Under the pieces are notes generated by a model. That model made no database searches. It was given only the letters and a program-made list of their open reading frames with translations, and was not told where the DNA came from. The position numbers were made by a program, and so were the translations under genes. Below, piece after piece: positions 50,421 through 64,000 of a stretch of DNA of 64,000 bases (the first letter of the stretch is position 1; each line of letters starts with the position of its first letter). The DNA comes from Sparassis latifolia (lineage: Eukaryota > Basidiomycota > Agaricomycetes > Polyporales > Sparassidaceae), in the NCBI GenBank assembly GCA_018466975.1, contig CM031560.1, positions 2,815,087 to 2,879,086 on the forward strand, written 5' to 3'.

Positions 50421-50818
50421 TTCCTTACCATGTTCGGAAAATGTGACATATCCAAAAACGTAATCTGTTCCTTGGATGTTCAGACACTGTTCCGCGTCAG
50501 AACATCCGCTTTTGCCCCCAGTGTTCGTTCGTCGTCGGCTAACAAGCCCGTAGAGTGTCTTCTGTCTTCAAACTGATACACCTATTTGCTGATTGCTCGA
50601 GTGATTACCTCAGCCTCCTCGGCCTATTGGTCTCTCGGACAGACCCTCTCCGAAGATGAGTGATCAGTCTATCCTTCAGCTACCTCGATTACAGAGTAAT
50701 CTCAAACGGTGCTTTAGCAATCGAATCGGTGTATCGCTCAGTCTTCAAGGTTCGGTCCGGTCGGTAGTTCGTTGTTAGACTCTAGGAAGTCACAGAGAGT
50801 AATAAGATCTCGACCTAA

Positions 50819-51458
50819 TGTTACGCGCAGCGAAACACGAGCGCCTAGTCGAGTCGTTACGAGACAAGGTCTTAGTCTAAGACACAAGTCCGCTCAAGTG
50901 ACACTTCTGGCGATGTCTTCGCACTGAAGGTCGATCAGAGTTCGTTCTTATGACTCGTAGTAGCTGTCTGCTACTGGCGGTCGATCTCAGTCAAAGGCAA
51001 GTGAAAAGCTGGTTTAATGGTAACCAGGTCGAGATGGGGATCCAGCTCGACAAGGTCGTCTATTTGTACAAAAGGTATCCGCAGTACTACGCAGTAATGC
51101 GAGATCGCTCATTGGCTAGATAAGGTGAAACGATATCTGGGCAAGGTAACAGCGAGGAAGTAATATGTATGAGAAAGCTGAGTAAGGTCGTGAGAGATAA
51201 TCAGTACTAATGGGGATAACGAGTCGTGTATCAGAACGAGGTAAAGATGAGGCGTACATGCACGTCTTGCATGCGCGATAAGAAAAAGGTCCGGAGTTGG
51301 ATCCGGTGTAACCCTAGACTAGGGGTTCTGGACATCTGGGTAAAGAATCGGAGGTTGCGCTCCAATGAGTCACGTGTTGTATCACGTGGTCTGGTAACAT
51401 AACAAGAACAAGGAAAAGAAAAAGAAAAGACGCGCCACAAGTGGGGAGCGTTGTAACA
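50819..51458 (-). mobile_element. Second LTR (640 bp, minus orientation) with truncated 5' leader
   Basis: Read on the minus strand it begins TGTTACAACG and ends GCGTAACA, the same termini as the 440-bp LTR of the complete element. Inside, the two LTRs are different. Next to its 3' end (plus 50818 leftwards), the sequence TTAGGTCGAGAT resembles TAAGATCGAGAC just after the other element's 5' LTR, so a primer-binding region is present and this is a 5' LTR and not a solo LTR. The internal region fades after about 250 bp. On the other side LINE ORF2 begins at 51459, so this element also inserted into, or truncates, the LINE. Confidence 0.7.
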
Positions 51459-52583
51459 GTCTGTAGGGACTGCTGCGCGGGTACCTGCAGATGGGAAGAA
51501 TGCATCATACAGTATTTGGCTCTTGCCTTGGTTGTCTGCTACGGCGTCCCTGTACTGTTCTGCCGGTTTCAAAGGGGGAACTCGAGTCTTTCCCCGCCTG
51601 TTGGCCCTGACTTGGTGAAACGGTTAACACTCCAGACGGACTCACTGTCAGCTGACTCCAGCCATGCTTCCCAGTGTTCACACTTTGCTTCACGGATCTG
51701 GTCAGTGTAGCGGTTTCTTTCTGCACGATACTCTGCATGTAGTGGATGCTGTGGAGAGGAACGGTTTGAAAGAACACTTGCTGAGATGACGCACCTTTTT
51801 CGAGTCTCGCCAAGTTCTTTTGACCACCAGCGCTTGGTGTAAGGAGACGGACGGGATACTGGTACATGTTCCTGTACTGTGGATTCCAGTGCCTGCATGA
51901 CAGATGCTAGCAGGGAATTGAACTCAGCTTCTGACTTTAGCTCCCCCTTGGGAACAGCTAGTGGTGTTAGGTACGCTTGCAGGGTGTTTCAGAAAGCCCT
52001 CCAGTCAACGCTCCGGAAGTTACGCTGGTGTTCTTCTTCTCTAAAGTGGACTGTGAGGTCAAGAATTGTGCTGATTGGAAAATGGTCAGTCATAGGAGGG
52101 CATAGGTCAGCAGCTACGTCACAGGAGATAAGCCTGTCTTCTAGTCCGCTAGATCTGAACACATTGTCTGGATGCGTAAAATTTTTAGAGTTAGAAGCCT
52201 GGAGAGTGGGAATAGCTGGGGGCAGTAGCATGTCGAGGTCAAAAAAAGTGATTGCATCGAGTAGGGGTTATGCTGAAGATAAAGCTTGTTCTGTGAATAA
52301 ATGTGCATTGCACTCCTCATCCCACATGGGGTGATGGTGGTTGAAGTCACCTGCCCACAAGATAAAACCCTCGTCAGTCAATAAATCTAGGCTGCGGGTG
52401 CTGCGACATAGCTGGTGAATTGAGTTCTGGTGCTGTTGGTCATTGTAGACATTGAAAACGTGAATGAGACCAGAGCTAGTCTTAACCGAAATCGCCGTGA
52501 TGTCAGGGGAATCAACCTTGAGGTCATTCCATGAACTCATAGGAAGGCGCATGCTGACTAGAATAATGGACTGAGTGCGTGAG
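51459..52583 (-). pseudogene. LINE ORF2, endonuclease and linker, part 2 (downstream of the Ty3 insertion)
   Basis: Minus-strand blocks in order are SSWNDLKVDSPDITAISV, an endonuclease motif FILWAGDFNHHHPMWDE, LPPAIPTLQASNSK with NVFRSSGLEDRLISCD, DHFPISTILDL, KRWWSKELGETRKR and SGTRAAVPTD. They match an APE-type endonuclease followed by the pre-RT linker of fungal non-LTR elements. Reverse transcriptase is not reached: the second LTR cuts in at 51458. Frameshifts and stops are frequent. Joined across the Ty3 insertion, this block continues the frame at 60361-60577 exactly. Confidence 0.8.
52579..52583. repeat. 5-bp target duplication GTGAG (left)
   Basis: GTGAG stands directly before the 5' LTR and again at 60361-60365 directly after the 3' LTR. 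Five-bp duplications are usual for Ty3-type integrases. Confidence 0.95.
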
Positions 52584-52728
52584 TGTTACAATGGTACGTT
52601 GAGTACCTATCTTTTTTCTTTCGATTACGTTGTACGATTACGCGTTGACCCGAGACTTCGAGTCTCGATATCTCTCGACTCGATCTGGACTCTCTCTAGA
52701 CCATGACACCATAGTCTAGAACCTGTAC

Positions 52729-52795
52729 TGACTCATCCCTCACTGTGAGGGTACTCACTGACTCATCCCTCACCGCGAGGGTACTCACTGACTCA
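52729..52795 (+). promoter_or_regulatory. Three TGACTCA (Gcn4/AP-1-type) boxes, 30-bp period, in U3
   Basis: Perfect TGACTCA heptamers lie at 52729, 52759 and 52789, each within a 30-bp direct repeat that also forms a small CCTCAC/GTGAGG stem. TGACTCA is the consensus for bZIP factors of the Gcn4/AP-1 class. The last box is about 40 bp upstream of the TATA box. The identical array is in the 3' LTR at 60066, 60096 and 60126. Confidence 0.75.
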
Positions 52796-52833
52796 GCCAT
52801 TACTGGCATGTATTACTCAACATGTACTATTAG

Positions 52834-52841
52834 TATATAAG
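52834..52841 (+). promoter_or_regulatory. LTR TATA box
   Basis: TATATAAG lies downstream of the TGACTCA array and 59 bp upstream of AATAAA, a compact arrangement typical of an LTR promoter with a short R region. Confidence 0.7.
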
Positions 52842-52892
52842 GCTGAGATCATCGACTGGAACCCCAGTCTTGATCTGGTTACTTTACCTCTC

Positions 52893-52898
52893 AATAAA
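52893..52898 (+). terminator. LTR polyadenylation signal AATAAA
   Basis: AATAAA occurs once in each LTR (also 60230-60235), downstream of the TATA box. In the 3' LTR it would direct the 3' end of the element's RNA. Confidence 0.55.
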
Positions 52899-53149
52899 CG
52901 GGATTATCACTAGTCTTGTGTGATCTTCTTGACTCTCGATTCTTGACTCGCATTTACTTAGTCGTCAAACGACTTAGTACTTGCTTGATGAACCTCGGAC
53001 AAGTGGTACACCCCAGCGTAACATAAGATCGAGACTATCCGATACCGCTCAACCTTTTCAGGTTTAGAGCAGAACTACATTTACAGAAACCCGACGAACC
53101 TTAGCCGATAAACACCTAGCAGGGCGAGTTACCCAGGGTGCGGAAAGAT

Positions 53150-54564
53150 TAGGAAAACATTGACACACTGGATTTTCGAGGACTAGAAGAATTTTCGTGC
53201 CCTCAACCTTCATCGATAAGGTGGGACGAAAACCTAGGACATCCAATCCACCGAGGCTCATCATTGAGAGAATTCAGAGCCCTCCCAACTATCAGAGAAG
53301 GGAGACCGGGTTGGAGGCTTGCATCAGACGAAGCAACCTACCGAAGAATTCTTGAAGAATTCACCAGAGACTATCTGAACGAAGCAGAACACTTCGCGAT
53401 ATATACTGCAGCAAGGCAAAACATCGACCGACTAATCGACCCAGCAGAAATACAATGAGAAGTTGATGAAATAACCCCGGGACATCCACTAGCAGAAGCA
53501 GCAGCAGAAGCAGAATCGGAAGCAGAATCAGAAGCAGAAGCAATGGCCCCAGCACCGATCCCCGCACAGCTTATACCTGCAGCAGCCTTTTCTGCAATCC
53601 CAGTCCACAGACACATCGCTTCAAACCCGACTCCCACGATGCAGACGCCAAAGCCAACCGAGCTCAAACTCTCCCAACCCGAACCCTTCTCGGGAGATAT
53701 GAGCAAAACAAAAATATTCCTACAAAGGGTTCAGATGTATGTTGATATCAATGATGAAATTTACAATAGCAACAAGAAGAAGATCACGTTCACGATGTCC
53801 TTCATGAGAGGAGGAACGCTGAAGCATGGGCTGAGACGTGGTATGATGACCACACCAACGACCTAGGAAAGCTGAAGGACTATGGAACCTTCGACGCATG
53901 GGTCATCGACTTCAACAAAGCATTCCAAGAGACCTACCCCATGGGATCGGCGATGAAAGACCTTGAATCTCTCCACAAATGGGAGAAGTACAGGATTACG
54001 TTAATTCATTCCTGGTACTTATGAAAAGGCCAAAATCACGGAATACACAGCACGCCTCCATTACTTTAAAATTGGACTATCCCGATGACTTCTTGAGCGA
54101 ATCATGAACGCCAACCCACTCCCACCGATATGGAAGGGTGGTACAAGAAGGCAGTTGAAATTGACAACCAGACCAAGTCGATGCAGATGTATACGAAATT
54201 CCAGAACAGTCGTCCTAGCGGACAGCAGCAGAAGCAGGGACAACAACAGAGGAAGGGACCTGTTTACACACGAGACCCTAATGCCATGGATGTCGACCGC
54301 ATGTCGCAAAAAGAATGCGACAGGCACATCAAAGGAGGACTCTGCTTTGAATGTCACCAACAAGGACATCGCTCGCGTGATTGTCCTAAGAGGAAGCCAA
54401 AGAACCCCAGAAACACTTCTGGAACGTGCAAGGAGATACAGGTCGAGGAATCCAAAGGGGAACCCTCAACCTCAAAGATAGAAGACGTTGAAGAAGACAC
54501 CACATCGGTCAAAAGAACGACCATTTCTGACAGTGATGTCTCCGAATTACTCCAGGAGTTATGA
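53150..54564 (+). pseudogene. gag: Ty3 gag: capsid and CCHC nucleocapsid (broken)
   Basis: Coding is recognisable from about 53150. An Ala/Glu repeat (AEAAAEAESEAESEAEA) precedes the capsid part (LSQPEPFSGDMSKTKIFLQ, VQMYVDINDE). After a one-base loss near 53820 it continues WAETWYDD and TFDAWVIDFNKAFQ. A further shift near 53985 and a TGA near 54087 follow. The C-terminal frame (54130-54564) holds the zinc knuckle CFECHQQGHRSRDC (C-x2-C-x4-H-x4-C) and an acidic tail. A first TGA interrupts the N-terminal part at 53456. Gag would package the element's RNA into particles; this copy cannot produce it whole. Confidence 0.85.
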
Positions 54565-54659
54565 AAGATGCAGAAAGAACGAATCGACTAGATCAGAAAA
54601 TTAGAAGGATCGGATTTTGGATTTGACAGGCTGTAACAGCATCAGTACCGTCATTACCA

Positions 54660-57600
54660 ACTCGTCACCCCAATGTAATTGTATGTGAATTCCTGGGAAA
54701 ATCGATACACGCTCCTATTACCTTGGGTGTGCCGAGTGAAAGTGCTGATATCTCCGCTCTATTGGACTCAGGAGCTGGAGGAATGTTTATGGACAAAGTG
54801 TTCATCGAATAAATGAAGTACCACCAGGAGAGACTCCCAAAACCGATTAGGATTCTCAATGCTGATGGTACTCCAAACAAGTTAGGATATGCAACGCACT
54901 GTGTATGGAAACGTACAAGGGCTGGAAGAAAACAAAAGGTATTCCAGTACTATGTTATCAACCTAGGAAAGGATGAGGTTATCCTAGGGTTACCATGGCT
55001 TCAGGCGATGAACCCTCAGATTAACTGGGAAACTGGTGAACTGGATTACGATTGAGAAAACCCACTGTCGAAACAGTCTGAGATAACGAACCAAAGGTCA
55101 AAAAGGCGACGAACGCTCCCTATATCGGACCGATTGATAATAATGGACGATCCTGGGAAAATAAAAATCCAAAACATCCGGAAAATCGAGTTAAACCAGG
55201 AGACCCAGAACTAGGAATTCACGATTACAGGATCGAATTGGAGGACAGCAAATTGCTTATCTCATATATCCAAGGCAAACTGATGCTGGCAATCTTTGAC
55301 CCGCAAGGTGATGCAGCACCTTCTGAATGCCCAACTCGAGGTGGTAACAAACCCACCTCAGGACCCTGTATAGGTCAGATAACGAGGATACTGCGATCGG
55401 GGCAATTTAGTATCGCACAAAACACTTGGCTATGTAACACCGGCACGGACACACTGCTCTATAAAGCTAGCGGAAAATCGCAAGAATTGGTACAAGAAGC
55501 AATCCAAAAGGCAGGAGGAGCGAAGAAGAAGCTTAAAGAGCTCATCCCCTCCTACCTGATGGGGTACAAAGACGTCTTCGAAAAGAAAGCAGCAGAACGG
55601 TTCCCGAGCTCACGGGCATGGGACCATGCTATCGATTTAAAACCAGAATTCGTACCAAAAGACTGCAAGATTTACCCCCTATTCCCTAAAGAGCAGATGG
55701 CACTCGATGAATTCCTAGACGAGAATACACGAAAAGGCTATATTCGACCATCGATATCGCCAATGGCATCCCCTTTCTTCTTCATAGGAAAAAAGGATGA
55801 GAGCCTTAGGCCTTGCCAAGATTATCGATACTTGAATGAAGGAACGGTCAAGAATGCCTACCCACTTCCTCTGATCACAGAACTCCTTGACAAACTCAAA
55901 GGAGCACGCTATTTTACAAAAATGGACCTTCGATCCGGATATAACAATGTACAAATCAAAGATGGTGATCAGTGGAAAGCAGCATTCAAGACAAATCGAG
56001 GACTATACGAACCAACGGTGATGTTTTTCAGACTTTGCAACTCCCCGGCGATGTTTCAGAAAATGATGAATGAAATCTTTAAGGACCTGATCGATGAAGG
56101 ATGGATGATCATCTACATGGACGACATCCTCATCTTCTCGAATAACATGGAGGAACATCGACAGCGTACACTTCAAGTCCTAGAACGACTCAAGCAAAAT
56201 GATCTGTTCGTCAAACCGGAGAAATGCACGTTTGACTCCCAAAAAGTAGAATACCTTGGGATGATCATACATCCGGACCATATTGGAATGGACCCGATCA
56301 AGTTGAAAGGAATCCAGGACTGGTCAGAACCAACAACGGTGAAAGCCGTCCGCGCATTCATTGGTTTTGCGAACTTCTACAGGAAGTTCATCGATCATTA
56401 TTCTGAGATAGTATGACCGCTCACTGATCTCACGATGACGACAAAGAAACCGATATGGGAATGAACCCCCAACTGCCAACAAGCGTTCAATATGCTCAAA
56501 GCAAAGTTTGTCTCAGCCCCCGTGCTCCTCATGCCAGATAAGACGAAACCCTTTATCATCGAGTCCGATGCCTCGCTCATGGCTACAAGAGCAGTATTAA
56601 GACAAACTGACGTCAACGGAGACCTCCACCCATGCGACTATTTGTCAAAATCGTTTAACCCAGCCGAATGAAACTACGAAATCTATGACAGAGAACTATT
56701 AGGGATCGTTCGGGCCCTCGAAGAGTGGTGTCACTACCTTGATGGCTCTCCCCACCCGATAACAATATGCAGCGATCACAAGAACCTGACCTACTATCGG
56801 ACAGCCCAGAAGCTGAACAGACGCCAAGCACGATGGAGTCTCTTCTTATCACAACCAACTCCAGTTGGTGCACGCCCCAGGAACGCAAATGATACAGTCA
56901 GACACCCTATCTCGGTTGCTTGGAAAGGGTGACCGAGATCATGATAACGAAGATCGTATCCTTCTCCCAGAAGCATTGTTTGTGCACTCGATATCAATGC
57001 AATTATACCAAGATATAGGCGCACATTCGATTAAAGATCAAATTGTTCACGATGCGCTTCTGCCTTGCAGCGCAAAGCGACCACCACCAATGAAATCTGC
57101 CCTCGATGATTGGAAAATCACTGACGGGCTTGTCCAATATCGAGGACGCGTATATGTACCCCCAGTACAACCTCTCCGACGTGATATTATCAAGTTGTAC
57201 CATGACACACCGGCCATAGGACACCCGAGTTCTTACAAAACCCTTGAACTCATCCGACATGATTTCTGGTGGCCAGGACTTTACTCTGCAGTATGCACCT
57301 ATGTGGAAGGATGCGCAGGGTGCCAACAGATGAAGATTAATATGCACCCCACTAAATCTCTTCCAATGCCTATACCAGCAACCCCAAATGCATTACCATT
57401 TTCCTGTTCATCAGTCGACTTCATCACAGACCTACCAGTATGACATGGTTTTGACTCTCTCATGGTCATGGTAGACCATGACCTTACAAAAGGGGTAATT
57501 CTTTGCCCTTGCTTGAAGACGGTCATGGCGGATCAAATGGCAAAACCTTTCCACGAAAAAGTTTACTCCCGATTCGGACTTCCAGACAAACTGATTTCCG

Positions 57601-58477
57601 ATAGAGGAACACAATTCGCATTCCAAGAACTATGCAGAATACTAGGAATCAGGTCCTCGATGAGTACAGCCTACCACCCCCAGTCAGATGGAGAAATGGA
57701 GCGCGTTAACCAAGAACTAGAAGTGTACCTCTGACTCTACTGTGGTAATAACCCCGAGTTATGGGTAGACCGACTACCGGACCTCGAATTCTGCCATAAC
57801 ACATGCAAACACTCAGCGCGGAAGATGTCGCCATTCCGCATGATGATGGGATACAAACCACGCGGAATCCCATCGGTACTCTCTAGGACAAATGTACCCT
57901 CAGTGGAAACTCGGTTATCTGAACTCCAGAAGATTCAAGATGAGGCCCTAGCCATGCATGAGCTAGCAAGACAGCATATGGCAGAACAGATCAGAAAGGG
58001 CTCACCACACTTCGCAAAGGGTCAGAAGGTCTGGCTCGATACAAAGAACCTGAACATCGGGTACCCGACATGGAAGATGGCTCCGAAATGTGAAGGCCCT
58101 TTATTATTAAAGAATGAATAGGCCCCGTGGACTACCGCCTGACCCTACCACAAGGGTGAAGAATCCACCCCGTATTCCATGCCAGCCTTCTATCACCTTA
58201 CAAAGAAATGGAGATCCACGGCCCGAATGATACGAGACCACCGCCTGATCTTATCGAAAAGCATGAGGAATACGAAGTCGAAGCAATCCTAAACCACCGA
58301 CAAAGATACGGTCGGACCCAATACCTGGTCAAGTGGAAAGGATACACTTCTGCTGAGAACTCATGGGAACCCAAAGCAAATCTGACAAATGCCGAGGGAC
58401 TACTAGGGGAATATAAAAGGCGACGACACCTGCATCGTATCTCAGCAATCACCCGCATAGGCCTTCACCACTTCTGA
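54660..58477 (+). pseudogene. pol: Ty3 pol: protease, RT, RNase H, integrase, chromodomain (broken)
   Basis: Protease has ISALLDSGAGG near 54755. Reverse transcriptase lies in the frame 55238-56416, with [14 protein letters not shown] and the catalytic I-Y-M-D-D. RNase H has [11 protein letters not shown] and NYEIYDREL. Integrase has the HHCC zinc module (H...C-A-G-C) near 57220-57330 and the DDE core with S-D-R-G-T-Q-F and D-G-E-M-E-R-V-N. The chromodomain ([20 protein letters not shown], then VKWKGY) at about 58268-58430 places it among chromoviruses, whose integration is steered to modified chromatin. In-frame stops include TGA at 56414, 56462, 56669, 57441, 57732 and 58157, plus at least one frameshift near 56855. 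The pol stop is at 58475. Confidence 0.9.
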
Positions 58478-58486
58478 ACCTCCACT

Positions 58487-59080
58487 ATGCCATCATCTGG
58501 AGCGCAGTCTGTTGTCGATGACTACTTTTCTGAAACTTCTCCGACTCCCTCGCCACACCCTAGGAACTTTAGGGGAGTACCAGCGCACGACATACGAGAT
58601 AACCTTAGGGCCCATCTCCGATTCTCACAACGAATTGGAACTATCGGTGACCTAGAAGACTTCGTCGTTGGCATAGTTGACTCGATCAATCCCATACATT
58701 CTAGAGCCACCACGCCATCCTTACCCGACATGCCCTGGATGAATCGTGAGCTCCACGAGTCAAGGGCAGTCCGTGTACTTGCAGAATACGAGGAGTTATA
58801 TCTCCAAGCCCTAACCACGTTGGATGATTCTCACGCGCAGTATGCGCTTAGGATCATCCATTCACAACAAGCTGCCAAATCTGAAATTATTTCCATGCAG
58901 CATGCAATAGCAGGGACATGACGATACACGGAGAGGATGGAAGCATTAGCGTTAAGCATGGGGGATAGAATCCAGCGACAGGAGGAAACACTAGCCCTAA
59001 TGTTTGCCCAGACGAACTCGTACCAACGACTCGTCGAGCTTGATGCAGACGCCACGCAGCCGCTCCTCCTCACCTTTTAA
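58487..59080 (+). pseudogene. Extra ORF3 after pol (197 codons, one TGA)
   Basis: The ATG comes only 9 nt after the pol stop. The frame runs to TAA at 59078, interrupted once by TGA at 58919. The product starts with a Ser/Pro-rich part, then a strongly helical, probably coiled-coil part (MNRELHESRAVRVLAEYEEL; MEALALSMGDRIQRQEETLA). Single-strand decay by TGA and the clean frame on both sides show it once coded. Chromoviruses normally end pol at the chromodomain, so an ORF here is unusual. It does not look like an envelope protein, because there is no signal peptide or membrane helix. Confidence 0.7.
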
Positions 59081-59085
59081 CAGAC

Positions 59086-59880
59086 ATGCCACCGGAGACC
59101 CCACGAGAGGGGACACCCCCCGTACCTCCACCGTGACCATCACATCTCGCCTTTGACCCCATAACAGTTCCTACCCTGAACCCGTTCGATTTGTTTGAAG
59201 GTGCTTCAACGTCTTCCACTCCAGCAGCGACTCATAAAGGTGTTTCCATCGCACAACCTCTACGCCCAATCCCCCCTCCAGATTACGTGTCGGAGTGGAA
59301 CTTTAGCGACAATCCCAACCATCATGCTGAAGGATTATCCCCGATGACCACGGAAAATGCGGTGCAGACCGAAACATCTGAACACTCGGACCAATCAACT
59401 CAGACCCTCGTAGATCCAGGAGAAAGTGAGCCTGGAAGGAACACCTCCCCGTTTCCTCCCGCCTTCTCCACAGCACTCATCGGGCCACACCGAACCATCC
59501 CAGCATACATCGCGTATCAACGACCACATCCCCAGTGCGTATTCTGCGGACAGTATATCCATCCGAAGTATACCTGCCCATTTTCCATTTGCGTAATCTG
59601 TCAATCTGTCCCCGCATCCCACGACCCGAACGCATGCCCTGCGTTGCTATCCAACAGGATGCGTTGCTACTACTGTGGAAAACAAGCACCTGGCCACATG
59701 ATAGAAGGTTGTTCCCACTCTCATGACTTCTACGCAAATTACGATGCGCGCGAGATAGTGTTCTCCTACCCTGACCCTCAAACGGACCTGCGATTCTCTG
59801 ACTTCGATGGAACGGGTTCGTTGTATACTGAAGGGTTTCCGATGAACAGCGTAACACCGTCGGAAGCAGGAGATACATAG
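59086..59880 (+). pseudogene. Extra ORF4 after pol: three zinc knuckles (264 codons, one TGA)
   Basis: The ATG lies 5 nt after the ORF3 stop. After a Pro-rich start there is a TGA at 59134, and the frame then stays open to TAG at 59880, 40 bp before the 3' LTR. Residues about 145-215 carry three knuckles in a row: CVFCGQYIHPKYTC (C-x2-C-x4-H-x4-C), CVICQSVPASHDPNAC and CYYCGKQAPGHMIEGC (both C-x2-C-x6-H-x4-C). A Tyr/Asp/Phe-rich tail follows. Triple knuckles point to nucleic-acid binding, as in Gag nucleocapsid, yet gag already has its own. Function is unknown; a second nucleocapsid-like or RNA chaperone role is inferred. Confidence 0.75.
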
Positions 59881-59920
59881 AAATGCCTTTGAGGGCAAAG
59901 GCAGCATAGGAAGGGGCTTA

Positions 59921-60360
59921 TGTTACAACGGTACGTTGAGTACCTATCTTTTTTCTTTCGATTACGTTGTACGATTACGCGTTGACCCGAGACTTCGAGT
60001 CTCGATATCTCTCGACTCGATCTGGACTCTCTCTAGACCATGACACCATAGTCTAGAACCTGTACTGACTCATCCCTCACTGTGAGGGTACTCACTGACT
60101 CATCCCTCACCGCGAGGGTACTCACTGACTCAGCCATTACTGGCATGTATTACTCAACATGTACTATTAGTATATAAGGCTGAGATCATCGACTGGAACC
60201 CCAGTCTTGATCTGGTTACTTTACCTCTCAATAAACGGGATTATCACTAGTCTTGTGTGATCTTCTTGACTCTCGATTCTTGACTCGCATTTACTTAGTC
60301 ATCAAACGACTTAGTACTTGCTCGACGAACCTCGGACAAGTGGTATGCCCCAGCGTAACA
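59921..60360 (+). repeat. 3' LTR, 440 bp
   Basis: Same length as the 5' LTR with six substitutions and no indel. It contains the TGACTCA array (60066, 60096, 60126), TATATAAG at 60171 and AATAAA at 60230. Confidence 0.97.
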
Positions 60361-60577
60361 GTGAGTCGGGTTTAGGATGATGTGGTGGATAAATAGCATG
60401 CCAGTGGTGAGTGGTGCGGCTCATGTTGTTGAAGTCTAAATAAGGTTCCTGCAGGAGAAGGAGGTCAAAATCGTTCGTAGTGACAGTGTTAAGGAATGCG
60501 GATTGCGCATTTAGCGACTTGTTAAGATTCAGTTGACAGATACGCAGTCGAGAGAGTGGTACTTGTCCATCAGACAT
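60361..60577 (-). pseudogene. LINE ORF2 start, part 1 (upstream of the Ty3 insertion)
   Basis: The minus-strand frame starts at ATG 60577 and encodes the beginning of an APE-type endonuclease: LRICQLNLNKSLNAQSAFL and DLLLLQEPYLDFNNMS, with N and E catalytic positions in the usual places. At 60361 it meets the GTGAG duplication and continues without loss of frame at 52578 (P-K-P-D-S joined to R-T-Q-S-I-I-L-V). Confidence 0.85.
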
Positions 60578-60677
60578 AATCTAGGGGAGAAGTGGAGCAT
60601 CTGTTGATAGGAGCTTGCAGCACTTGTTGTCTCACGCAGCGAGGGAAGTCCAATATTTGCGTCTGGGATTGGGAGGA

Positions 60678-62413
60678 CTAGCGTCGTTGTGCATCTTGCT
60701 GTTCTTGCGCCCTCCGAGCCTGTGACGGACGAGGCGGCTTGTTGCTAGGAGGTGGCGTTGAAGCATCTACGTCATCTGCCCAGTTGAAAGAGAAGGTTCG
60801 GGGGTTCTGTGTGTTGTCATGCGGCACTGCCTGATGGGGAGGGGCCACGACGGTGTTGGGCAGGGCAGAGGTCACTTCCGTTAGCTGTTCCCATGTGGCG
60901 GGATCAGCTGTCAGGAAGTAGTGGTACTTACTCTCGGGTTGTCTGTCTGCCATCTTCCTGCGATGTTCCTGGAACACTGGGCACATGCGATCCCAGGCTG
61001 CATGCCCCGCCAGTCTGTACGGCCGGAGGCCTGGCAGTTAGCACACTGATAGTCATCCGGGTCAACCTCGCAGTCCGCAGTCTTGTGTCCTATTGATGCA
61101 CATGACCCACAGGTATCGTGGATGGACTTGCATTCTGAACTGATGTGCAGGATGCCGATCTTCTGACACTTGAGGCATCTATGTGGCTCGGAGATCAGTT
61201 TGTGTGCATTTACTCTCTTACCTGCAATGATTATTCCTTTGCGAATGGCATTGTTCACCGGCACAGGTGCATTGAAGCGGACAATGAGGTGTGCGACTCT
61301 CTGATTTGGATGACGTCCCTCCGGTGCCTTGATCCAGCGAGCACTCTCGATGTCCCCGGGGTCATAGTTATTAAAATGTTCTATTCCATGAAGGTAGTGG
61401 TCATCGTCTGCGCGGCAAGCAGTGGGGACAAACTCAGCTAAAATAGCATAGGAGTGGGTCTTAAGCTGGCAATTGTGTCCTCCGAAGTGTTCGAGGAAGA
61501 CTTTCATGACATCCGGGGTGTGGAGCCAAAGGGCTGATGTTGGGCTGTCCAGGTCGTAAAGCACTCCTCCGTTCTTTAGTCTCTTGCAGGATTTGATGGT
61601 GAAGGATGTAGGAGCATCCGCAGCCTTGACGCCCATCATCGTGCAAGCCATATTGGCTTTGGCGAGGAGCTCTTCTTCCGTCAGGAGGTTACTGGAGGAG
61701 TTCGCAGCAAAGACGCCATCGACGAGAACCTGACACATGCAGATGCCTTTGCGAGCCAGGGTGGACGCATGGGAGGTGGGAAGTACTTGTGTGACTGCCA
61801 CAGCATATGTCAGTCCAGTGTTCTGAGGTATAGAACTTGCCTGTGTGGTGGCGTGTATCTTTGCCGATTCCTCCTATGCCTGCAGCATCTTCTTGGCTGC
61901 CTCTTCCAACTGCACGGTTCTCTCTCCAAGCTTCTTATGCTCTTCGGCTAGTTTCTTCAGGAGGTGACCTGTCGTGTCTGCATGGACCTTGTATTGAGTT
62001 TCTATCTGATCCAATTGCGTGGCTGTCTCTTCTAGCCGATCAAAGGCTTGGTAGGTCCTGTGAACTACTTGCTCGACAATTCTGCTGGCAGCTTCTTCTA
62101 CAGTGAGCATGCTGGCATAGTGAGCAAAAGCGGTGATTATGTCGACCATCACTGAAGCTTTAGTAGCAATCTGTGCGAGTTTACCCAGGCCGGTGACCAG
62201 GCTCTGCAGCTCTGGGGAGCCCTCGTCGACTAATTTATGTTTCTGGAGTACCTTTACTGCATCATCAATCATCTTTACCTTGACTGTCATTGGTATTATA
62301 AGATCAGGCTTAGGGTTAGTGGGGATGGTAGGTGTCGCCGGAGTGGCCGATCTCAGCGCGCATTTGCCCGTACTGCTGGCTGCCTCCGCAGCTCCTACTG
62401 GCTGGGGTGGCAT
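60678..62413 (-). pseudogene. LINE ORF1 (coiled coil plus CCHC zinc fingers), two breaks
   Basis: ATG 62413 opens a 179-codon coiled-coil part (RTYQAFDRLEETATQLDQI, EEHKKLGERTVQLEEAAKK) ending at a TAG near 61874. The same frame resumes to about 61020 with an RNA-binding domain and the knuckles CLKCQKIGILHISSEC and CGSCASIGHKTADC. A one-base shift near 61030 moves the C-terminus (CPVFQEHRRKMADRQPESKY) to another frame that ends at 60678, 100 bp before ORF2. This is the ORF1 of a Tad1/I-like fungal LINE. ORF1p binds element RNA. Together with ORF2 it shows the LINE was inserted on the minus strand. Confidence 0.8.
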
Positions 62414-62687
62414 GTATACAGTAGCTTTCCTGGTACTGTACTAGTAGACTGTGCCTCGGCCTGCTGAAGGTACGACTACGAGTAGTGGCCCACGGAAATG
62501 CAGCCTGCTCCTATTGGCTGGGACCGTGGGAAAACTGCCTTGAGATGGAAGTGCGAAGCAAAGAGGAGCCCCGGTAGGATCCCTTACGGAAGCTGGTTGG
62601 GTGAATTTTGGGTGAATTTGCAATGTTTGAATGAATCAGAGGTTGCGGGTGACTAAGGCAAAAAAGGACAAAAAGTCGAAATAAGTC

Positions 62688-63593
62688 TCACAAGTAAAAG
62701 TTGGATTTTCCTGATGCAGCTTTAATGCATTTCACGACATTGGCCTCTGAGATTAGTGTGTAGGTCGTAGCATTGGGGAAGCCATTCGGGCAAGAGGCAG
62801 ACATGTGGTCTTGTTCGGGTAGGTGATACTTGTAGCATCCTTGGTATTTCTGGAGGATGTTACATTTGTCCTGAGTGATCTTCTGCAATTTGTTGAAGAC
62901 ACCTGCAGCGGTCTCAGTGGCAGAGCGCTTGTTTCCACTGATAGAGACCTTATTGGCGAGGGGGCATATATTGATATGCTTGGCATGCTCCTTCATGATT
63001 GCATCAGTGATGGCACTACTCACAAGGTCGTCTTTCTCTTGAAGCTCCTCATCGAGATCCTTGACAGCCAAGAGCCAATAGGAGAAGAGGATGATGTTAT
63101 TACACTCTCGCTCATGGTGCGGGGAGTTCATTTTCTTCTTGAGATGGGTGTTGACACCTGCATGAAGCTGCTGATGGAGTTTGGTATCATTGAGTGCCTG
63201 GATCGTACAAGAGATGACAGCCGCCTTAGATTGAATCTTATTGGCTCAGTCCCAAAAGGGGCATTCATTCTGACATGCACCCATGACCTCATCGTGGATA
63301 GAGCTGTCCCAGTCATGGGGGAGGTAGGTGGTGCAAACCTCAGTTGTGAAGTTCTCAAATGCGAAAGCATCAAGGCGGCCTTGGTAAACATTGTACCATA
63401 CTGCAAGATGCAGATCTTCTATGCGGGATGCGATGGTAGAAACCTGAATCTCATCAGCAAGTTGTGTCTTGCGGAAATGGCACTCATAGGCCATCTGCCA
63501 GGAATTGATGATGGCAGGGGTGAGGTCTCCGAGGAGTAGCTTTAGAGCCTGGCTCTCCTTCAGAAACTCAATGGTAGTGAGTTTCTTTGTCAT
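62688..63593 (-). pseudogene. Gag of another LTR retrotransposon (frameshifted)
   Basis: The minus-strand frame from ATG 63593 (LTTIEFLKESQALKLLLGDL, MAYECHFRKTQLADEIQ) ends near 63250. It then shifts frame and continues from 63131 with SYWLLAVKDLDEELQEKDDL and a finger-like end, K-Y-H-L-P-E-Q-D-H-M then SASCPNGFPNATTYTL. The C...H...C-P-N-G-F-P ending is the form I recall for gag in a large group of Agaricomycete Ty3 elements. No LTR is identified in the window; pol would lie to the left but is absent, so the copy is partial. Confidence 0.6.
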
Positions 63594-63742
63594 TTCAGAT
63601 GGATATATGCACTCTGATTCAGCATCTGCGGTCTCGACTAAGGGGAATTCAGAATCGAAAGGGGACGGAGATATGCTGGGTGAATCTGAGATTGAAGAGA
63701 CCGAGGACAGTGATGGGGAGATTACGGTAATAGTGTCATCGA

Positions 63743-63957
63743 TTATCAGGAAAACCCAACTTTCTCTTATAGACTTATTTAGACTTTGGGGTCTGAGAAC
63801 CCTTATTTAAGGCCATAAGTGTTCAAATAAGTCGAATTCCAGACACTCAGAGAATATGCCTTAGGCCCTCTTTGTCCTTATGCCCTTAAATAAGGACCAT
63901 AAGTCCATTTAAGTTATTTAAGTGTCCTTTTAAGGAAAAGTGGGGTTTTCCTGATGA
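63743..63957. mobile_element. About 215-bp palindromic element, ATCAGGAAAACCC ends
   Basis: The left end ATCAGGAAAACCCAACTTT and the right end (reverse complement ATCAGGAAAACCCCACTTTT) are inverted. The inside holds many TTTAAG/CTTAAA and TAAGG/CCTTA motifs able to fold back on themselves. A third related stretch, about 70 bp, lies inverted at 62646-62720, at the 3' end of the gag relic. No coding capacity; the target duplication is unclear. Confidence 0.55.
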
Positions 63958-64000
63958 TGGCAGTCGACAATGGGGTCTGTTGTTCTAAATGTGCCGGGCT

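Follow-up and report, generated by a model that had tools for sequence, protein, structure and literature searches.

Analysis of a 64,000-nucleotide stretch of the Sparassis latifolia genome (contig CM031560.1, positions 2,815,087 to 2,879,086, forward strand; hereafter the window) revealed a long terminal repeat (LTR) retrotransposon at 52584-60360, with 440-bp LTRs, TG...CA termini and GTGAG as its 5-bp target duplication. In the genome analysed (41.4 Mb in 22 contigs), the window forms the end of contig C9. The two LTRs of this element differ from each other only at CpG sites, and the origin of these differences is the subject of this report. The element and its boundaries are as follows, in window coordinates:

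52579..52583, no strand: target-site duplication GTGAG, left copy (from the sequence; the same 12-nt flank is present in both duplicates on contig C8)
52584..53023, plus strand: 5' LTR, 440 bp, TG...CA (LTR alignment; genome search)
54340..54390, plus strand: Gag-like CCHC zinc knuckle PF00098, marginal (20.4 bits, slightly below the cut-off of 20.8)
55784..56269, plus strand: reverse transcriptase RVT_1, E 8.8e-33, inside the open frame 55082-56413
57171..57338, plus strand: integrase H2C2 zinc-binding domain, E 2.6e-18
58271..58423, plus strand: chromodomain PF00385, E 6.3e-18, downstream of the integrase zinc domain
59921..60360, plus strand: 3' LTR, 440 bp, with six differences from the 5' LTR
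60361..60365, no strand: target-site duplication GTGAG, right copy (from the sequence; empty-site paralog on contig C11)

A reverse transcriptase, an integrase zinc domain and a chromodomain thus lie within LTRs flanked by a 5-bp target duplication, as in chromodomain Ty3/gypsy elements, and together with the marginal CCHC knuckle these domains identify a Ty3-type chromodomain element. The zinc-binding domain was the sole part of the integrase matched in the pieces scanned, and the reading frames of the element are interrupted. The interval between the chromodomain and the 3' LTR also holds an open frame of 247 codons (59137-59880) that features several cysteine/histidine clusters and has no Pfam match. 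The element is nested in another repeat, and contig C11 carries a paralog of the flanks without the insertion; this paralog (94.8% identity over 3342 aligned columns) crosses the insertion point and contains the target once. The TG...CA ends, the GTGAG duplication and the empty paralogous target site establish the element as a true insertion.

Alignment of the two LTRs, 440 bases without a gap, yielded six differing bases, all on five CpG sites, which corresponds to 1.4% raw divergence and zero divergence outside CpG. Their coordinates and states are exactly those given in the original prediction, which had read them as a methylation-decay signature:

52592..52593, plus strand: CpG site 1 (LTR position 9), TG in the 5' LTR and CG in the 3' LTR; 52592/59929 = T/C
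52963..52964, plus strand: CpG site 2, CG in the 5' LTR and CA in the 3' LTR (60300-60301); 52964/60301 = G/A
52986..52987, plus strand: CpG site 3, TG in the 5' LTR and CG in the 3' LTR; 52986/60323 = T/C
52989..52990, plus strand: CpG site 4, TG in the 5' LTR and CG in the 3' LTR; 52989/60326 = T/C
53009..53010, plus strand: CpG site 5, CA in the 5' LTR and TG in the 3' LTR (60346-60347); CG in 12 of the 25 LTRs aligned

Under a null model in which any C/G site is free to mutate, differences at 6 of 50 CpG sites and at 0 of 151 other C/G sites give a Fisher p of 1.9e-4. Among 25 aligned LTRs, CG is found 9, 14, 17, 13 and 12 times at sites 1 to 5, respectively, and the ancestral state was CG at all five because each is CG in LTRs of other insertions. 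This includes site 5, whose CA/TG pair had been proposed to reflect two decays of one ancestral CG; all 12 LTRs with CG at this position belong to other insertions, and the ancestral CG proposed for it holds.

The comparison was extended to the whole family. A genome search with the LTR gave 32 matches at no fewer than 31 places, the window pair included. All 31 were retrieved and 25 were aligned, leaving out six partial or more diverged places (L032-L037); for per-site counts the four LTRs of two duplicates were removed and 21 LTRs kept. Ten elements have both LTRs, and three of these are copies of one insertion, which leaves eight independent insertions. The target duplication is perfect in six, carries one mismatch in another (on C11, at a locus other than the empty site) and is not visible in the last (on C5). 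The LTR pairs of the two C8 duplicates were not pooled, their automatic alignment being poor near position 40-70. A locus at C8:1308228-1308673 also appears to be a solo LTR of this family, with TCTTC as its target duplication.

Between the 5' and 3' LTRs of the eight insertions there are 92 events, comprising 68 of CG versus TG or CA, four of CA versus TG, 18 other transitions and two transversions. Per site, transitions affect 76/416 CpG C/G sites and 18/1136 other C/G sites (ratio 11.5; Fisher p = 1.3e-29). The original prediction had expected a strong CG excess once substitutions were tabulated by dinucleotide across the family, and had set the pattern apart from the CpA bias of classical ascomycete repeat-induced point mutation (RIP). 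Both expectations were borne out, with 72 of the 92 events at CpG and no CpA preference. The CpG transitions yield both TG and CA products, and the split between CpG and non-CpG changes is homogeneous across insertions (p = 0.90), as gradual decay predicts. Given the spectrum of the seven other insertions, the probability that six of six changes fall in CpG is 0.22. The exclusively CpG pattern of the window pair therefore reflects the family's usual spectrum and a measure of luck, and is not peculiar to this element.

Two further retroelement groups and the flanking repeat agree with this excess. For the reverse transcriptase (RT) region, 151 matches were obtained, of which the best 30 entered a one-strand comparison; 18 loci gave 35 qualifying alignments, which share loci, so that the pairs are not independent. 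Loci in opposite orientation stayed unpaired, which split the window family into two sets; their loci match the window element at 90-94% identity. A pooled CpG/non-CpG ratio of 7.9 was obtained from the nine alignments with at least 97% identity, eight of which come from two groups other than the window family. The ratio was 4.35 for 26 alignments at 90-97% identity, in which two other groups are mixed with the window family. The flanking repeat, compared with its empty-site paralog on C11, carries changes at 118/392 CpG and 36/1398 non-CpG sites (ratio 11.7). The part of this repeat at 60361-64000 is CpG-depleted, with an observed/expected (o/e) ratio of 0.59 for 60001-64000, compared with 0.77-1.18 for the window's other 4-kb bins. 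A hand-transcribed count of in-frame stops among the reverse transcriptase matches listed (45 rows) gave 41 TGA, 12 TAA and 5 TAG. Such a TGA excess is what CpG decay would give.

The base preceding the CpG also matters. Changes are most frequent at ACG in every one of the four sets, namely the LTRs (39/110), the flank (40/95) and the RT alignments at 90-97% (957/2648) and at 97% or above, whereas TCG is the least affected in three of them (24/213, 16/91 and 757/3974, respectively). At 97% or above the remaining contexts are near-equal (CCG 43/755, TCG 66/1078, GCG 61/918). ACG is also the top context of 5-methylcytosine decay in humans.

The genome encodes enzymes that fit CG methylation. An exon-wise six-frame search with PF00145, which a weakly matching gene might escape, gave five pieces from apparently four genes, and four of the pieces were searched against the PDB. 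One piece had its best match (E 5.6e-79) in 7r76, named Rad8 by its depositors, which we take to be Cryptococcus Dnmt5; an SNF2 domain lies about 2.7 kb downstream on the same strand, and we assign this gene as DNMT5-type. Two pieces match DNMT1, each with an RFD domain 2.4-2.7 kb upstream, and one matches the tRNA enzyme DNMT2. None of the five pieces was recognised as RID/Masc1 or DIM-2. This set, two DNMT1-RFD genes and one DNMT5 gene of predicted activity, fits CG methylation and not ascomycete RIP. With DNMT2 included, the same 2/0/0/1/1 set is tabulated for Coprinopsis, Laccaria and Agaricus (PMC7862722). Basidiomycete methylation is described as mainly CG and mainly in transposable elements (PMC7862722, PMC13297926, PMC6627472), and bisulfite data for two Pleurotus species place CG methylation mainly in transposable elements, at about 0.5 versus <0.03 in genes (PMC6627472).

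Two duplicates of the window element were found on contig C8, at 2106938-2114706 (minus strand) and 2332272-2340051 (plus strand). In both, the 12 bases outside each LTR, target duplication included, are identical to those of the window element, and each of the five sites has the CG, TG or CA state that the window shows in the corresponding LTR. Four 3.4-kb loci spanning parts of these duplicates are 98.7-99.5% identical to the window. The right flank is 100% identical over 3366 bases in one C8 copy; in the other, about 290 bases are followed by an interruption of about 15.5 kb before the flank continues. Since the same five states occur in the same LTRs of the duplicates, the simplest account is a single origin of the changes that preceded these recent duplications, and gene conversion among the three copies, though possible, is not needed. 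Duplicated insertions must accordingly be collapsed before copies are counted. The methylation-decay signature itself is supported by the CpG excess and the CG-type methyltransferase genes, whereas a recent decay private to this locus is not, the changes being common to two segmental duplicates. The duplicated segment, with its nested elements, occupies three places in the genome (window 50523-63765; C8 2103536-2116768; C8 2330189-2359212). At its start in the window lies a repeat of about 940 bp (50523-51459) that is found, 96-98% identical, at 33 further places among the 40 matches listed, and is possibly the LTR of a young retroelement family. An Rfam scan of the window gave no match at gathering thresholds.

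The three copies also differ from each other in an unusual way. Comparison of window 51086-60000 with four duplicate loci (L003, L004, L008 and L070) revealed mainly single-base indels and transitions that adjoin, but do not lie in, a CG; one duplicate additionally contains a 16-base insertion and a garbled stretch. Sites with CGC in the window and CGT in the duplicates were first put down to errors in the duplicates. An outgroup check reversed this at eight of the nine checkable sites, where the T of the duplicates is found in other copies as well and the window copy is the exception; at the ninth, the other copies have the C of the window. One duplicate shows the same CG-adjoining change on the other strand at two sites. 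T-to-C changes clustered beside CG match no mutation pattern known to us. The CG-adjoining changes are most likely base-calling errors next to methylated CG, the repeat being difficult to polish; no description of this exact error was found in the literature searched, including the excerpted text of PMC9997738. If this explanation is right, the miscalls would be an indirect sign of methylation, although this is no more than a lead. The duplicates also contain four changes of CG to CA or TG; other copies all carry the CG base at three of these sites and are mixed at the fourth, so CpG decay may have continued after duplication.

Miscalls of this kind raise the question of whether the five LTR differences could themselves be sequencing or assembly errors at methylated CpG, given the odd CG-adjoining transitions and the single-base indels, resembling long-read miscalls, in the window element and its duplicates. 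However, the LTR differences are C/T or G/A changes in the CpG itself, they are reproduced in all three copies with the same 5'/3' assignment, and of the 18 non-CpG transitions counted over the eight LTR pairs, none adjoins a shared CG; miscalls therefore do not explain them. Moreover, the local sequence is common to both LTRs, so a context-driven error should strike both, and we regard error as the least probable account of all. Scarcely more credible is an exchange, by gene conversion or recombination between elements, of part of one LTR with a diverged copy. Four of the five sites do cluster at LTR positions 380-427, and other copies show the same states. Outside CpG, however, the two window LTRs have no difference at all, whereas each of the 19 LTRs of other insertions differs from both at eight or more places. 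All 19 differ within positions 383-388, between site 2 and sites 3-5 (partly at another CpG), so a single tract over sites 2-5 from any of them would have brought that difference along. Several short tracts could avoid this. The same sites are hot in other insertions as well.

An active, repeat-directed mutation of CpG, acting in bursts at meiosis in place of passive decay of methylated CpG, is a more serious contender, although we still consider it improbable. CpG-biased change in basidiomycete repeats has been named RIP-like, with a TpCpG preference in Microbotryum (PMC4352252, PMC4014442), and all the sequences compared here are repeats, with which a repeat-only process is compatible. Against it, no RID-type gene was recognised among the PF00145 matches, and the Microbotryum-type preference is absent, TCG being the lowest of the four contexts in the LTRs and the flank. 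Change density is also low, strands are mixed, and non-CpG changes rise together with CpG changes across insertions.

We therefore favour, with considerable confidence, a mechanism in which a chromodomain Ty3-type element inserted once, was silenced by CG methylation and lost its CpGs singly before the locus was duplicated. The observed basis for this is the insertion anatomy, the CpG-restricted differences, the roughly 11-fold CpG excess of the family, the ancestral CG states, the duplicates and the methyltransferase genes of CG-maintaining type. The single insertion would have started with two identical LTRs; after presumed silencing, methylated CpGs on either strand would have turned into TG or CA individually, and at least two further copies of the decayed locus, flanks included, would then have arisen elsewhere. 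The chemistry would be deamination of 5-methylcytosine, the usual cause, or replication errors at methylated CpG. Present or past methylation of these CpGs is our inference, as is the attribution of their loss to deamination and not to an active mutation process. Polymerase epsilon errors at methylated CpG, measured for the human enzyme (PMC11549043), offer an alternative chemistry that is still methylation-dependent, and sequence cannot separate the two.

Several observations weigh against this mechanism or limit it. The comparisons cover repeats, so the CpG excess may or may not be confined to them. Young LTRs, within 5% of the window 5' LTR, keep a CpG o/e of about 1 (0.88-1.16), and decay is therefore slight. 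The RT pair of the window and a duplicate (L069/L070) has a CpG/non-CpG ratio of only 2.7, which we ascribe to miscalls. Finally, decay is very uneven among the 28 CpG sites: 20000 simulations produced no case as extreme, and plain deamination blind to sequence context does not account for it.

This unevenness has a positional component. The LTR ends had decayed in 38/73 pair comparisons and the body in 26/128, a difference of about 2.5-fold across a boundary that was picked after inspection of the data. At the CpG at LTR position 9 (window 52592), the two LTRs differ in all seven informative insertions, the 5' LTR being the decayed one in six. We claim no asymmetry between 5' and 3' LTRs, neither for this site (6 to 1, p = 0.125) nor for CpG losses over the eight insertions (39 in 5' LTRs and 29 in 3' LTRs, p = 0.27). 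A speculative and rather doubtful reading is that the unequal loss is a fossil map of where methylation lay on the LTR. If so, methylation, or the exposure of methylated DNA, would be positioned along the LTR and may differ between the 5' and 3' copies.

CpG-biased transposon decay has already been reported for basidiomycetes, and the present element is a clean further instance; the ACG preference, the unequal decay along the LTR and the behaviour of position 9 are less expected. It provides a within-insertion measure of methylation-type decay in a fungus with DNMT1-RFD and DNMT5 genes, in which CpG sites change about 11 times faster than other C/G sites. LTR-divergence dates in such genomes will be inflated unless CpG sites are masked.

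In Microbotryum, Melampsora and Puccinia, a CpG-only C-to-T signature in transposable elements, strong in the first and very weak in the two rusts, led to the proposal of deamination after methylation (Amselem et al. 2015, PMC4352252). The present genome resembles those basidiomycetes in its CpG-signature decay, a Masc2/DNMT1-type enzyme and the lack of a recognised RID or DIM-2, but it prefers ACG where TpCpG is reported for Microbotryum, and it has a second DNMT1 and a DNMT5. CpG-biased C-to-T change is likewise known from another agaricomycete, Rhizoctonia solani AG8, where it is seen between nuclei, in genes and repeats, with about 40-50% of C/T changes at CpG (PMC4014442); here it is seen between the LTRs of one insertion, with 76 of 94 transitions at CpG. 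Classical ascomycete RIP shares the C-to-T changes in repeats, but is CpA-directed and RID-dependent, whereas here the target is CpG, no RID was recognised and the changes are gradual and sparse. The element itself has the LTRs, 5-bp target duplication, reverse transcriptase, integrase zinc domain and chromodomain of Ty3/gypsy chromoviruses, from which the window copy departs in its interrupted frames and in the additional open frame upstream of its 3' LTR.

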